Shown: in pieces, positions 1 to 64,000 of the stretch
Layout of the letters: each line of letters begins with the position of its first letter
Position numbering within the stretch: the stretch's first letter is position 1
NCBI RefSeq assembly: GCF_014698505.1
Contig: NZ_JACJTD010000005.1
Coordinates: 124,001-188,000 of the forward strand
DNA length: 64,000 nucleotides
Reading direction: 5' to 3'
DNA from: Nostoc foliaceum FACHB-393
Lineage (GTDB): Bacteria; Cyanobacteriota; Cyanobacteriia; Cyanobacteriales; Nostocaceae
Translations under genes and position numbers: made by a program
Notes under the pieces: model-generated
The model's input: the letters and a program-made list of their open reading frames with translations, nothing else
Database searches by the model: none
Told to the model about the DNA's origin: nothing

Positions 1-3000
1 GTGGGGGAGAGTTTCTTTATTTGCGATCGCTAATTTATCTTTGAGTTGACTATGGGTTAGCAAAACCCTTGCTCCACAGTCTTCGAGCATGAAATGAATG
101 CGTTCTTGTGGGTAATTGGGGTCAATTGGTACATACGCCCCACCTGCTTTGAGGATACCAAACAAGCCAACAACCATTTCTGGCGATCGCTCTACGCAAA
201 TCGCTATCAATGGATTATCAGGTAATTGTTGCTCTGCTTTGAGTTCTAATAGAGAATACGCTAGCTGATTAGCTTTTTGGTTCAGTTCTTGATAACTCAG
301 GCTTTGGTCTTCAAACACCACCGCAATGTTATCGGGCGTTTGTGCTGCTTGTTGTTCAAACAGAGTAACTAAAGTCTGATTTTTGGGATAATCGGTATTA
401 GTTTTATTCCAAAGTTGCAGTTGTTGGATTTCTGCTGTTGTCATCAAGGGCAGCTTACTGACCATCTGCTGGGGATTTTCAGTGATTGCTTCCAGCAAGG
501 CTTCAAAGTGTCCCGCCATGCGCCGAATGGTTTCTGCCTCAAATAAATCGGTGGCATATTCCCACATACAGCGTAGTTGACCATCCCTTTCGCAAAGGTC
601 AAGTGTCAAGTCAAACTTGGCAAATGGATAATCTTGATCCAACCATTGAATATCAAGCCCTGGTAAACTAACATTTGTCCCCGCCCCTTCGGTGTTTTGC
701 AACACGATCATCACTTGGAATAAGGGATTATGGCTCAAACTGCGCTCTGGTTGTAACTGTTCTACCAAATATTCAAAGGGAATATCTTGATGAGCATAAG
801 CATCTAAGCAAGTTTGGCGAGTTTCTTGGAGTAACTGGCTAAATGCTTGCTCTGGCTTGATTTTGCTCCGTAATACCAATGTATTGACGAAAAAGCCAAT
901 TAACCCTTCTGTGTGGCTGTGGGTGCGGTTAGCGATCGCAGAACCAACACATAAATCCTCTTGACGGCTGTAACGCAATAGCAAAATATTAAAAGCCGTC
1001 AACAGGGTCATAAACAAACTAACCCCGTGTTTTTGACTGACGATTTTGAGTTTCTCAGTCAATTCGCCACTCAAACAATATTCCTCGCGCCCACCTTCGT
1101 AACTTTGTTGTGCTGGACGGGGATGATCGGTAGGCAAATCTAGCAATCGGGGAGCATCGCCTAGTTGTTGTTTCCAATAATTTTTCTGATTTTCTAAAAT
1201 CTCTCCTTGTAACCAACTGCGCTGCCAAGCTGCATAATCGCTATACTGAATCGGCAACGGTGGCAAATTTGGAGCATCCCCCGCAGCAAAAGCTGAATAA
1301 GCCTGTTCCCATTCCCGCTTAAATACCCCCATTGACCAGCCATCACTAATAATGTGGTGCATATTCAAGAGCAGTACGTTTTTCTGTTCGCCCAGTTGCA
1401 GCAATTTCGCTTTGAACAGAGGGCCGGTATTTAAGTCAAAGGGTTCTTGGGCGTGGGTATCTGATAACCGTTGTACAGTTTCTGCTTGAGTTTGGGGATT
1501 AAGTGATTGTAAATCTGCGATTGCCAGTACTTCTATATCCTCTAGATTTTGGGCGACTACTTGCGGCTGTCCCTCCAAGGCTGGGAAATAGGTGCGTAAA
1601 ATGGGATGGCGATCGAGGAGATAATCAAAGCTTGCACGTAACGCTTCTATATTCAACTTGCCTTCAAGTTGCAGAGCCGTTGACATATTGTAGGTAGCCG
1701 AGGTTCCAGTGCCTTCAAGTTGGGCTAAAAACCAGAGCCTCGATTGAGCAAAGGACAGAGTTTTAGGAGCATTTTCAGGTTGTGGTGTGATGGGAGGTAA
1801 AGCAATTACTGAAGATGCTTTGTCAATTTCTATTGCCAACTCAGATAAAATGCTTTGCTCAAATACCTTGCGGACAGGCAATTCCACTCCAAAACTGTCA
1901 CGAATGCGGGTAACTAATTGGGTTGCTAACAGAGAATGTCCACCCAATTCAAAGAAGTTATCTTGGCGGCTAACGGACTTAGCTTTCAGGAGACTTTGCC
2001 ATAAAGTCGCCAGCAGTTTTTCCGTTGGCGTGACTGGTATTTCAAAGTTAGTCGAAGTGACTGTATCTGGTGCTGGTAGCGCTCTGCGATCTAGCTTACC
2101 GTTAGGTGTAAGGGGCAACTGATCCAACACCATAATCTGGCTAGGAACCATATAATTCGGCAGGCGAATTTTCAGATAATCCTTGAGTTGACTGCCTAAA
2201 TTGCTGGATTTTTCTGCCGCCGTAATATAACCAACTAACCTGGGATTATGATCAGTTTCGTATAAAATAACAACCGCTTCTTTAACTGAAGGGTGTTGCA
2301 ATAATAGCGATTCAATTTCACCAAGCTCTATTCTGAAGCCCCGTAGTTTAATCTGATCGTCAATGCGACCGAGATACTCAAGGTTGCCATTATCTTCCCA
2401 TCTTGCCAAGTCGCCAGTTTTATAAATTCGCTCAATTTTGCCAAATAATTCAACTTCAATGAATTTTTTGGCGGTTAAATCGGGACGGTTGAGATAGCCT
2501 CGTGCTAAACCAACGCCAGCAATGCATAATTCTCCAGGTATTCCTGGGGGTAATGGTTGATTGTGAGTATCCAAAATGTAGATGCGGACATTGGATAACG
2601 GTTTACCAATGGGTGGTTTTTTGCCATTAGGTTGACAAATGGCTATACTCGCACTAACTGTAGATTCCGTAGGGCCATAGCCATTGAATAAACGTCGCCC
2701 AGTTGCCCATTGTGCCACTAATTCTGCTGGGCAAGCTTCACCACCAACGCCTATAGTTTGCAAATCGGGTAAGGTCGCTTGAGGTAATACCGATAAAGCC
2801 GAAGGCGGTACAATAATGTGAGAAATTTTGCGATCGCCTAAAAAATCAACCAAGCCCTGACCGGGTAACAAAGTGTCTTTTTTAGCAAGATATAAACAAG
2901 CACCCGTGGCTAGAGTGGGAGCAATTTCAGCAACAGAAATATCAAAACTAAAAGAAGCAAACTGAAGAAAACGGCTTTGGGGTTGAACTTGCAAAGTGTT

Positions 3001-59929: not shown

Positions 59930-62900
59930 ATGCTGGAATTTGGGAAAAGGCTTCTTGCTTATAAACAGTTTATCCCCCACGGTCATTGCTATCTTTGGAA
60001 AACAGAATTAGTGGGGTTACATATTGTATCCGATAGTTTAATTGCGCTTGCTTATTATTCCATTCCCATCACGCTACTTTATTTTGTCCGCAAGCGCCAA
60101 GATTTGCCCTTCAACTGGATATTTCTGCTATTTGCAACATTTATTGTTACTTGTGGTACTACCCACCTGATGGAGATTTGGACGCTCTGGTATCCAACTT
60201 ATTGGTTGAGTGGTTGCCTTAAAGCTATTACAGCCGTAGTTTCACTGTACACAGCTTGTGAACTTATACCTTTAATACCAAAAGCACTTGCTCTCCCCAG
60301 TCATGCACAACTGGAGGCAGCTAATCGAGAATTAGAGCGGGAAATTAGCGAACGGCAAGCCGCGCTGTGCGATCGCAAACAGGCAGAACTCGCACTACAA
60401 GAGCGGGAAGCTATGTTGCGGCGAATTGGCGATAACCTGCCCAATGGGGCAATTTATAAAGTAATCCGCCAATTGGATGGCAGCGATCGCTTTGATTATA
60501 TCAGTGCGGGGATTGAAAGACTGACGGAAGTCAGGGCAGAAGATGCACTGAAAGATCCAAGTTTACTTTATCGCCAGTTTATCCCAGAAGACGCACTACT
60601 CTTTCAGGCAGCAGTCGATGAATCCCGGCAGAATCTCTCGGTGCTTGATATACAAGTGCGAATTCAAATGCCCAGCGCTCACCTTAAATGGTTTCATTTT
60701 CGTTCTACGCCACGCCAGTTGCAGGATGGTTGTGTAGTTTGGGATGGACTGGTAGTAGATGTGACCAACCTCAAATGTGCTGAAGAAACACTACGCAAGA
60801 GTGAAGCCTTATTAGAAGAATCTCAGCGAGTTGCTCGTCTCGGTAATTGGGAGTTTGATATAGCCAGTCAAAAAGTTAGCTGGTCAAAGCAGCTTTTCGA
60901 CCTCTTTAATCGAGATCCAGCACTTCTTGAGCCGAACTACCAAGAAAATCTGCAACTATACTGGGCAGAAGATGCAGGAAAATTAGCCCAAGCAACTGAG
61001 CGGGCAATTTCAACTGGCGAATCCTACAAACTTATTCTACGCGCATCTCCAACTTACGGGTCTACTATTTATATTGAGGGGATTGGACATGCAGAATTCA
61101 ACGCGGATGGAAAAGTAATTCGCCTCTATGGGACTGCCCAAGATGTTACAGAACGGCTTGCCGCACTCAACGAACGCAAACAAGCCGAGAAAGAACTCCG
61201 ACGCAGTGAAACGTTGCTAGCTACTGCTCAAAAGATTGCCCATCTGGGCAGTTGGGAGTGGTACTTAGAGTCTCAAAAGCAAATTTGGTCAGATGAAACC
61301 TTTCGTATCTTAGGTTTAAATTCTACTCAATCAGCACCGACGCAGGCTGCATTTCTCCAGATGCTTCACCCAGAAGACCGACCAGTGTTGCAGAGGCGTT
61401 TACTAAAGGCGATCGCCAATAAAACTCCTTTCAATCTTGAATATCGCATTATCCGACCTGATGGCTCATTGCGCTACCTGGAGTCAAGAGCAGAGGTAGC
61501 TTATGATACTCAGGGTAAGACTGTTAGACTGTATGGAGCTATTCAAGATATTACAGAACGTAAAGAAAGCGAGTTAGAAATCACCAAGAGCCGCGACTTG
61601 CTAGAAGCTGTCTTTAACGAATCCGCTGATGCGCTTTTTTTGGTAGATACAGAAACGTTACTGACCATTGACTGTAATAATCGTGCAGTAGAACTATTTG
61701 CAGCCTCAAGCAAAGCTGAACTCATTGGTATTGAAGGTCATACTTTACAAAAAGAGCAGTTTACTTCTGATGAACTAACCAGCATTGTCGAAAAAATTAA
61801 CCAGCAAGAGTTGTGGAGTCGTGAAATTGCATACTTTACCAAGCAGGGCAATTGCTTTTGGGGAAACATAGCAATCAAACAAATCAGGGTTGCTGACCGA
61901 GTGATGAATTTAGTACGAGTTACGGATATCAGCCCCAAGAAGCGTATCGAAGAAGAACGCCAACGAGCAGAAGTAGCCTTAGCTAAAAGTGAAGAACAAC
62001 TTAGGCTGACGATGGAATTTAACTATATCGGTAGTTGGGATTGGAATTTGCTTGATGGGGCAGTCATTTGGAATGACAACCACTTTCGCTTGTTAGGGTT
62101 AGAACCAGAAACATCATCAGCTAGATACCAGGTATGGCGCAATGCTATTCATCCAAAGGATGTTGAGCGAGTTGAACAGGCTCTATTCAACGCCATGACT
62201 CAGCATACTAATTATGAAGCTGAATATCGGGTGATTCATCCTGATGGCAAAGTGCGCTGGTTGGTTGGAAAAGGACGCAGTATTTACAACGAAGTAGGTA
62301 AACCTGTGCGGATGTTGGGTGTGGTGATTGATATTAGCGATCGCAAGCAAGCAGAAATTGCTCTGAAACAAAGTGAGATTCGCTACCGTGCCATTGTCGA
62401 AGATCAGACTGAACTCATTGCCCGATATTTACCAGACGGTACACTTACGTTTGTCAACCAAGCTTATGCAGTTTATTTTGGACAATCGCCCGAGGAAATG
62501 ATCGGCAGCCGCTATCAACCGATTATCTTTGAGGAAGATCGGGAGCGAGTTGTTCAATTAGTCGCTTCAATTAGTGTCGATAATCCTGTCGTGATTATTG
62601 AGAATCGCGTCGTTGTGGCAAATAAAGTGCGTTGGACTCAATGGCATAACCGAATGCTGTTTGACGAGCAAGGATGCTTTATCGAATTTCAATCAGTGGG
62701 ACGCGATATCACAGCCCTGAAGCAAATTGAAGAAACACTTTTTCAAGAAAAAGAATTAGCTCAGGTGACGTTGCAATCGATTGGAGATGCAGTTATTACC
62801 ACAGATGCGTTTAGCAGGATTCAATACCTCAATCCCATTGCAGAATCTCTGCTCGGATGTAGTGAAGCATCTGCACAAGGGTTGCCGTTAAAAGAAATCT

Positions 62901-64000
62901 TGAGAATTGTGCATGAAACGACACGGGAGGTAGTTCAGAACCCAATTGAGCAAGCGTTAAAGGAAAATCGAATTGTGAGTTTAGCAAACCATACCGTCTT
63001 AATTACTGAAAACGATCAAGAGATTGCGATTCAAGATTCCGCCGCGCCCATTCGCAATCGTGAGGGACAAGTTATTGGCGCGGTTATGGTGTTTCATGAC
63101 GTGACTCAGAACCGCCAGCTTTCGCGTCAGCTATCCTGGCAGGCAACCCATGATGCCTTAACCGGATTGGTGAATCGCCAGGAGTTTGAGCGGCGGGTTG
63201 AACAAGCATTGCACCTTGCTTCTTTAGACTACCAGGTTTATGGGTTGTGCTATTTGGATCTCGATCACTTCAAAATCGTAAATGATACCTGTGGTCATGT
63301 GGCTGGAGACGAATTACTGCGTCAAATTACTGCCTCATTGCAGGAGAAGATTCGGAAAACTGACACACTCGCACGGTTAGGCGGCGATGAATTTGGCGTA
63401 TTACTCAATCAGTGTACACAGGAGGAAGCTTTAGGAGTTGCCAACAATCTGCTTTCATGTGTTCAAGAGTTCCGGTTTGTTTGGCAAGAGCAGGTATTCT
63501 CAATTGGAGTAAGTATTGGCTTGGTCGGTATCGACACGAATACCAAGAGCCTTGCAGAGATTATCAGCACGGCTGACGCAGCTTGCTATGCCGCGAAGAA
63601 CCGGGGGCGCAATCGCGTGTATATTGCTCAGACTGACGACCAGGAGCGACTGCAACAGCGTGGGGAGATGCAGTGGGCCAGCCGCATTTCTCAAGCCTTG
63701 GAAAGTGATTGGTTTTGTCTCTATGCTCAAAGAATTACCGCGATCGCTCCGACAGATCAAAATGGCGACCATTATGAAGTGCTGCTGCGGCTCCGGGATG
63801 AGCAGGGAAATTTAGTGCTGCCGATGGCGTTTATTCCAGCAGCAGAACGCTACAACTTGATGCACCTGATTGATCGGTGGGTGATTCAGACTCTGTTCAG
63901 GAATTGGACAAGGGTCGTTGGCGATAAACAAAGCATCTATGCGATTAACCTTTCTGGCTCTAGCATCAACGATGATCAGTTCATTGACTTTCTGTATGAG
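59930..64000 (+). CDS. Ethylene-receptor-like sensor: ethylene-binding domain, seven PAS, GGDEF, EAL (3' end beyond window)
   Basis: The frame opens at ATG 59930 and is still open at 64000 (1357 codons). Residues ~30-115 form three membrane helices matching the ETR1 ethylene-binding domain. Asp35, Tyr42, Ile45, Pro46, Cys75 and His79 keep the exact spacing of ETR1 Asp25, Tyr32, Ile35, Pro36, Cys65 and His69 (SDSLIALAYYSIP, VTCGTTHL). A coiled coil (~120-155) and about seven PAS/PAC units (~155-1060) follow. The GGDEF domain has its motif at 1151-1155 and an RxxD inhibitory site (RKTD, 1142-1145). An EAL domain starts near 1247 (YEVLLRL at its active site) and is cut by the edge. It should bind ethylene through Cu(I) and control cyclic di-GMP; whether both catalytic domains are active is not known. 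Confidence 0.93.
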   Translation, partial: MLEFGKRLLAYKQFIPHGHCYLWKTELVGLHIVSDSLIALAYYSIPITLLYFVRKRQDLPFNWIFLLFATFIVTCGTTHLMEIWTLWYPTYWLSGCLKAITAVVSLYTACELIPLIPKALALPSHAQLEAANRELEREISERQAALCDRKQAELALQEREAMLRRIGDNLPNGAIYKVIRQLDGSDRFDYISAGIERLTEVRAEDALKDPSLLYRQFIPEDALLFQAAVDESRQNLSVLDIQVRIQMPSAHLKWFHFRSTPRQLQDGCVVWDGLVVDVTNLKCAEETLRKSEALLEESQRVARLGNWEFDIASQKVSWSKQLFDLFNRDPALLEPNYQENLQLYWAEDAGKLAQATERAISTGESYKLILRASPTYGSTIYIEGIGHAEFNADGKVIRLYGTAQDVTERLAALNERKQAEKELRRSETLLATAQKIAHLGSWEWYLESQKQIWSDETFRILGLNSTQSAPTQAAFLQMLHPEDRPVLQRRLLKAIANKTPFNLEYRIIRPDGSLRYLESRAEVAYDTQGKTVRLYGAIQDITERKESELEITKSRDLLEAVFNESADALFLVDTETLLTIDCNNRAVELFAASSKAELIGIEGHTLQKEQFTSDELTSIVEKINQQELWSREIAYFTKQGNCFWGNIAIKQIRVADRVMNLVRVTDISPKKRIEEERQRAEVALAKSEEQLRLTMEFNYIGSWDWNLLDGAVIWNDNHFRLLGLEPETSSARYQVWRNAIHPKDVERVEQALFNAMTQHTNYEAEYRVIHPDGKVRWLVGKGRSIYNEVGKPVRMLGVVIDISDRKQAEIALKQSEIRYRAIVEDQTELIARYLPDGTLTFVNQAYAVYFGQSPEEMIGSRYQPIIFEEDRERVVQLVASISVDNPVVIIENRVVVANKVRWTQWHNRMLFDEQGCFIEFQSVGRDITALKQIEETLFQEKELAQVTLQSIGDAVITTDAFSRIQYLNPIAESLLGCSEASAQGLPLKEILRIVHETTREVVQNPIEQALKENRIVSLANHTVLITENDQEIAIQDSAAPIRNREGQVIGAVMVFHDVTQNRQLSRQLSWQATHDALTGLVNRQEFERRVEQALHLASLDYQVYGLCYLDLDHFKIVNDTCGHVAGDELLRQITASLQEKIRKTDTLARLGGDEFGVLLNQCTQEEALGVANNLLSCVQEFRFVWQEQVFSIGVSIGLVGIDTNTKSLAEIISTADAACYAAKNRGRNRVYIAQTDDQERLQQRGEMQWASRISQALESDWFCLYAQRITAIAPTDQNGDHYEVLLRLRDEQGNLVLPMAFIPAAERYNLMHLIDRWVIQTLFRNWTRVVGDKQSIYAINLSGSSINDDQFIDFLYE

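Follow-up and report, generated by a model that had tools for sequence, protein, structure and literature searches.

The 64,000-nucleotide stretch of Nostoc foliaceum FACHB-393 analyzed here (contig NZ_JACJTD010000005.1, positions 124,001 to 188,000; the window) ends within a forward-strand gene that joins an ETR1_N ethylene-binding domain to seven PAS domains, a GGDEF domain and an EAL domain. Translation from the ATG at 59930, which has a TTG one codon upstream (59927), gives a protein of 1491 residues; the open frame passes the window end at residue 1357, and the remainder was read from 20 kb of the same contig. An initial annotation of the window had suggested reading the EAL domain past its end; read to 64405, the domain is complete, with residues as in RbdA of Pseudomonas aeruginosa. 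The Pfam matches are ETR1_N (PF25487; 150 bits against a curated cut-off of 27, E = 1.8e-44), GGDEF (E = 3.3e-41) and EAL (E = 3.1e-60), with PAS models across the middle, where a profile built in this analysis counts seven copies. The annotation's ETR1 domain on a seven-PAS GGDEF-EAL protein is thus borne out by Pfam and by the PAS profile, although the number seven is not fixed across the family: genome G413 has 7 copies, G409 has 6 in the part seen, G412, G419 and G420 have 5, and G125 has 2. None of the protein's ten Pfam matches is to HisKA, HATPase_c or a receiver, so the protein is without a kinase-type C-terminus, and none is to MHYT; as had been annotated, the output is a cyclic di-GMP (c-di-GMP) module and not a histidine kinase of the Synechocystis type. 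The stretch 59930-64000 contains no direct repeat of at least 40 bases, so tandem duplication at the DNA level was rejected as the origin of the seven PAS domains. The gene is real, intact and rare, and its function we infer. Feature limits are collected in Table 1, where PAS limits are frame coordinates minus 3 and the seventh PAS is trimmed at its overlap with GGDEF.

Table 1. Features of the ETR1_N-PAS-GGDEF-EAL gene, in window positions.
Feature	Position	Strand	Basis
ETR1_N - 7 PAS - GGDEF - EAL gene	59930..64000, full gene to 64405	+	Open reading frame, Pfam
PHGHCYLW directly before helix 1 (residues 16-23)	59975..59998	+	Sequence reading, alignment
ETR1_N ethylene-binding domain (residues 27-122)	60008..60295	+	Pfam, alignment, predicted helices
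Long helix following the membrane helices (residues 125-164), probable signaling coiled coil	60302..60421	+	Model, confidence (pLDDT) 97-98 mostly
Seven PAS domains	60488..63124	+	Pfam and purpose-built profile
PAS, about residues 187-309, 314-442, 449-576, 582-703, 710-834, 838-960, 963-1065			
GGDEF domain (residues 1072-1229); GGDEF 1151-1155, RxxD 1142-1145	63143..63616	+	Pfam, motif reading
EAL domain (residues 1252-1485), cut by window end	63683..64000	+	Pfam, RbdA alignment
EAL residues in window: E1283, N1340; beyond window: E1372, D1402, D1403, K1423, E1459, Q1479			

Alignment with Arabidopsis ETR1 (first 116 residues) places D35, Y42, I45, P46, C75 and H79 at ETR1 D25, Y32, I35, P36, C65 and H69 with identical spacing, in agreement with the six exactly spaced residues (Asp, Tyr, Ile, Pro, Cys and His) that had been annotated. 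K98 corresponds to ETR1 K91, the preceding stretch being three residues shorter than in ETR1. An AlphaFold2 model of the sensor (mean predicted local distance difference test, pLDDT, 74.7; predicted template modeling score, pTM, 0.43) has helices at residues 25-55, 62-85 and 89-121, followed by the long helix of Table 1. The first three are predicted membrane helices, with the Asp in helix 1 and the Cys and His in helix 2; a sequence search for solved structures of this membrane domain gave none at E ≤ 1. The PHGHCYLW stretch before helix 1 belongs to a motif, P[HY]GxxYLW, found in 143 of the 152 cyanobacterial ETR1_N proteins examined.

Such a domain might instead anchor the protein in the membrane, or sense copper or some other small molecule, so that the signal would not be ethylene, a possibility we consider unlikely. 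Ethylene binding by this protein is read from its sequence, PHGHCYLW has no counterpart in the aligned Arabidopsis ETR1, and copper serves for carbon monoxide in the MHYT gas sensors, which likewise occur on GGDEF-EAL, with nitric oxide proposed as well (PMC11347149). What argues for ethylene is the retention of all ETR1-required residues, including the equivalent of D25, whose change from Asp to Asn lowers affinity about 100-fold (review PMC13012798), together with the homologous cyanobacterial and Azospirillum receptors that bind or respond to ethylene (PMC11819568, PMC6682694, PMC5812497).

The output module has its GGDEF motif and, as the RxxD inhibitory site, RKTD, and the eight EAL positions in Table 1 carry the same letters as RbdA (8 of 8). 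These are catalytic and metal positions of EAL domains. DDFxxG is described as the EAL metal site, and the RbdA phosphodiesterase as restrained by its own cyclase domain and increased by GTP (PMC11372557). The best solved relative by sequence is the RbdA PAS-GGDEF-EAL structure 5xgb, which matches along 424 residues (E = 4e-145). RbdA also came top when a 685-residue model (mean pLDDT 73.1, pTM 0.42) was searched by fold. The whole-length template modeling (TM) score was low, 0.41-0.49, since the placement of the domains in the model is uncertain; taken by itself, the EAL part matched the RbdA EAL entry with a TM score of 0.92 (of target) and 54% identity.

Selection on the parts of the gene was compared using medians of Nei-Gojobori ratios of nonsynonymous to synonymous substitution (dN/dS), leaving out G401, G411, G431, G172 and the Aphanothece gene. 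Among seven sensor-bearing genes (21 pairs), the medians were 0.15 for the ETR domain, 0.34 for PAS6-7, 0.36 for GGDEF and 0.19 for EAL; the sensor and the EAL domain are the most constrained of the four parts compared. It looks as though EAL, not GGDEF, is the more constrained catalytic part. This bears on whether the ETR1 domain binds ethylene and the output is mainly a diguanylate cyclase, so that ethylene would alter c-di-GMP synthesis. The intact GGDEF motif and RxxD site would suit a cyclase, as would the existence of other cyanobacterial proteins with the order ETR1_N-PAS-GAF-GGDEF and no EAL, but the lower EAL ratio and the phosphodiesterase activity of the closest solved relative, RbdA (PMC11372557), point the other way, and we regard it as rather unlikely.

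Relatives of the gene include four that have lost the sensor. In the same-genus genomes G404, G424, G427 and G403 the frames are 776-786 residues long, with two PAS domains, GGDEF and EAL; they begin with what is left of the third helix and linker, and the region carrying helices 1 and 2 with the copper site is missing from both protein and DNA. No ETR1_N match was found at these four places, while each genome has 3 to 5 elsewhere, one of those in G427 scoring below cut-off. The GGDEF, RxxD and EAL residues are all retained, and the four form one clade (100/99) in the GGDEF-EAL tree. An assembly error is unlikely, as the form recurs in four genomes of one well-supported clade without ETR1_N at the place. 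Median dN/dS among the four (6 pairs) was 0.67 for PAS6-7, 0.58 for GGDEF (0.37-1.09) and 0.32 for EAL, and between sensor-bearing and receptor-less genes (28 pairs) 0.62, 0.38 and 0.28, respectively. There is a hint of weaker constraint after sensor loss, and only a hint, because pairs share branches, dS is low and numbers are small.

Rather than a receptor, the gene could be a decaying product of domain shuffling with no settled role, which we judge very unlikely. Deletion of the copper site in four genomes, frames broken or split in three more, a PAS number ranging from 2 to 7 and the highest GGDEF ratio, 1.09 in one receptor-less pair, would all fit decay. The low ETR and EAL ratios in the seven sensor-keeping copies do not, and the window genome and six relatives have binding and catalytic motifs in one open frame, save for the altered residues of G125 and G419 and for G412, where the contig ends.

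The fusion is uncommon. Of 386 cyanobacterial genomes searched for the family, 90 have ETR1_N, with 219 matches in total. Frames were read for the best 150 of these 219, for locus L010 of the window's own genome and for one extra domain from a fetched region, making 152. The best 150 comprised 138 histidine kinases, 7 GGDEF proteins (3 with GGDEF and EAL, 4 with GGDEF only) and 5 without assigned output; L010 has GGDEF only, and the extra domain is without assigned output. Output classes come from profiles built in this analysis, and seven proteins cross-checked in Pfam all agreed (two HisKA_2 kinases, two ETR1_N-GGDEF-EAL, two ETR1_N-GAF-GGDEF and one receptor-less GGDEF-EAL). The at least 80 named loci nearest to the window sensor (81 frames), a set biased to near relatives whose genomes may overlap with the 386, gave 71 kinases, 6 GGDEF proteins (5 with EAL) and 4 without assignment. 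A GGDEF-EAL output on ETR1_N is rare among cyanobacteria. Chance or misassembly as the source of the fusion is ruled out by its recurrence in the Nostoc records L042, L043, L045 and L040 (cut by a contig end).

Across the 152 frames, 137 of 138 kinases retain Cys65 and all 138 retain His69, and all eight GGDEF proteins have both; Asp25 is kept in 130 kinases (8 have Asn) and 7 of 8 GGDEF proteins, L010 having His; Pro36 in 128 kinases and 8 of 8; and Lys91 in 112 kinases and 7 of 8. By these counts, small as the numbers are, the GGDEF class is no more degenerate than the kinases. ETR1_N-like stretches were also found in 19 plasmid records, 7 of them from Azospirillum.

Close relatives of the window sensor bear either output, kinase or c-di-GMP. 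Kinases of Fortiea, Mojavia and two Nostoc records (L044, L046, L047 and L049) carry sensors 80-85% identical to it. The same-genus relative in G413 is 92% identical. In a FastTree phylogeny of 230 sensor domains the c-di-GMP label switches at least 8 times, and the window sensor falls in a group of eight (support 98, with weak internal supports) comprising six c-di-GMP proteins and two kinases. In the GGDEF-EAL tree the Nostoc family is one clade (100/100), from which the ETR1_N-GGDEF-EAL proteins of G172 and Aphanothece (98/98) are separate; four same-genus GGDEF-EAL rows, with no ETR1_N match at their places, stand between the two groups. This arrangement fits at least two ETR1_N-GGDEF-EAL fusions and is not proof of them. 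We would give an even chance to the history in which a Nostoc-family ETR1-PAS lineage that mostly drives kinases was joined to GGDEF-EAL, making a single-protein ethylene receptor that sets c-di-GMP directly, and a sub-clade then dropped the copper site, leaving a bare enzyme under relaxed constraint.

A functional sensor of the ETR1 type, joined to an intact GGDEF-EAL module, is supported by inference from the sequence, the predicted model and selection alike. The reading we favor, with moderate confidence, is a membrane receptor with copper-dependent, ETR1-type ethylene binding that signals to an RbdA-type GGDEF-EAL and sets c-di-GMP turnover. A dimer would bind Cu(I) through C75 and H79, and its helices would shift on ethylene binding; the signal would travel through the coiled coil and the PAS array, which would alter the restraint of EAL by GGDEF. 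The net effect would be changed c-di-GMP hydrolysis, probably the main output, with GGDEF serving partly as a GTP-binding switch, as reported for RbdA. This receptor model rests on the kept ETR1 residues, the ETR domain having the lowest dN/dS, the predicted helices, the intact RbdA-like motifs and the stronger constraint on EAL than on GGDEF; on the presence in the window's own genome of five Cu-type P1B ATPases above cut-off and of two types of c-di-GMP effector; and on RbdA regulation and published ethylene responses. In Azospirillum, ethylene acting through AzoEtr1 lowers biofilm and c-di-GMP, the path to c-di-GMP being given as unknown in the accessible part of the report (PMC11819568), and Synechocystis, whose UirS/SynEtr1 binds ethylene, moves faster with it (PMC5812497). 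Somewhat doubtfully, we suggest as a direction that ethylene may increase hydrolysis and lower c-di-GMP, favoring movement over matrix. A route from ethylene to motility or matrix is plausible, because the genome encodes a glycosyltransferase-2/PilZ fusion (its one PilZ match) and one ComFB protein above cut-off.

Several observations weigh against the receptor model. The four siblings without the copper site keep an open GGDEF-EAL frame, so the enzyme can persist without ethylene sensing. Some strains can do without the gene: the orthologue in G401 ends after GGDEF, that in G411 stops inside EAL, that in G431 is split into two frames, and beside its long copy G409 has another that is split. 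In G125 the arginine of RxxD is lost and Lys stands in place of E1459, as it also does in the Aphanothece protein; in G419, Thr stands in place of ETR1 P36. ETR1-type domains might also have a ligand other than ethylene. As to direction, the AzoEtr1 effect may not carry over, because AzoEtr1 is a histidine kinase, and cellulose production by Komagataeibacter is increased by ethylene, with no receptor reported in the accessible part of that paper (PMC4686702).

The protein differs from known systems mainly in what its sensor is joined to. SynEtr1 (UirS, Slr1212) of Synechocystis and AtETR1 share its three-helix ETR1_N type (ligand residues were compared with AtETR1 only) and end in a histidine kinase, whereas the window protein ends in GGDEF-EAL; SynEtr1 is also a light-sensing cyanobacteriochrome (PMC5812497). 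AzoEtr1 of Azospirillum brasilense, likewise an ETR1-type receptor, is a two-component system with a separate response regulator, whereas here the enzyme lies within the receptor (PMC11819568). RbdA (PA0861) has a periplasmic domain between two membrane segments where the window protein has its ETR1 domain (PMC11372557). MHYT-(PAS)-GGDEF-EAL proteins (MucR, NbdA and CdgB) are alike in outline, with a membrane copper gas sensor on GGDEF-EAL, but the sensor is a different domain, MHYT (PMC11347149). DosP of Escherichia coli, which appears among the structure matches, has an oxygen sensor fused directly to GGDEF-EAL. The DosP sensor is a heme PAS rather than a copper site in the membrane. Of the two receptors in Geitlerinema, one adjoins a gene with a diguanylate cyclase domain (PMC6682694), and the output domains of prokaryotic ethylene-binding proteins are widely varied, some being absent from plants, so fusion of ethylene-binding domains to new outputs is already known in general (review PMC7700396). 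A literature search, judged mostly from listed hits and mostly without subscription papers, recognized no published description of an ETR1-type sensor on GGDEF-EAL. Ethylene is known to affect bacterial biofilm, motility and, in Azospirillum, c-di-GMP, and in the accessible text of PMC11819568 the link from receptor to c-di-GMP is unknown; if the receptor model is true, a receptor with its own c-di-GMP enzyme would make that link testable within one protein, with near relatives of its sensor on histidine kinases and siblings lacking the copper site as natural controls.

The window's own genome has 22 GGDEF and 11 EAL matches, and ETR1_N in five proteins (three kinases, the protein described here and that of L010), one of the five matches being weak (38.6 bits). 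The second ETR1_N protein with a c-di-GMP output (L010:6309-8063; G000:C119) has a divergent ETR1_N followed by PAS, GAF and GGDEF; its sensor, with the His noted above and the Cys and His retained, turned up in 2 of 80 genomes belonging to the order, its own counted, but 14 of 17 same-genus genomes have weak ETR1_N matches (35-44 bits) in frames 563-598 residues long. At L007:7049-10558 the gene of an ETR1_N-PAS-HisKA_2 kinase lies 18 bases ahead of one for a receiver-PAS-histidine kinase, and the two are likely partners.

A promoter search for the gene gave 2 matches against 1.3 expected by chance and was not used. Downstream, a PP2C gene adjoins in 5 of 15 genomes, in 4 of them with NfeD and SPFH; as an explanation of function this conserved neighbor was set aside, since it points to no pathway. 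The receptor-less gene of G427 sits before the same PP2C-NfeD-SPFH genes as the orthologues in G125, G431 and G401, while none lay beside the genes of G404, G424 and G403 within the 17 kb fetched. Between the window gene and the next lies a 21-base tandem repeat of about 12 copies (L006:10585-10832, corresponding to 64585-64832, past the window end).

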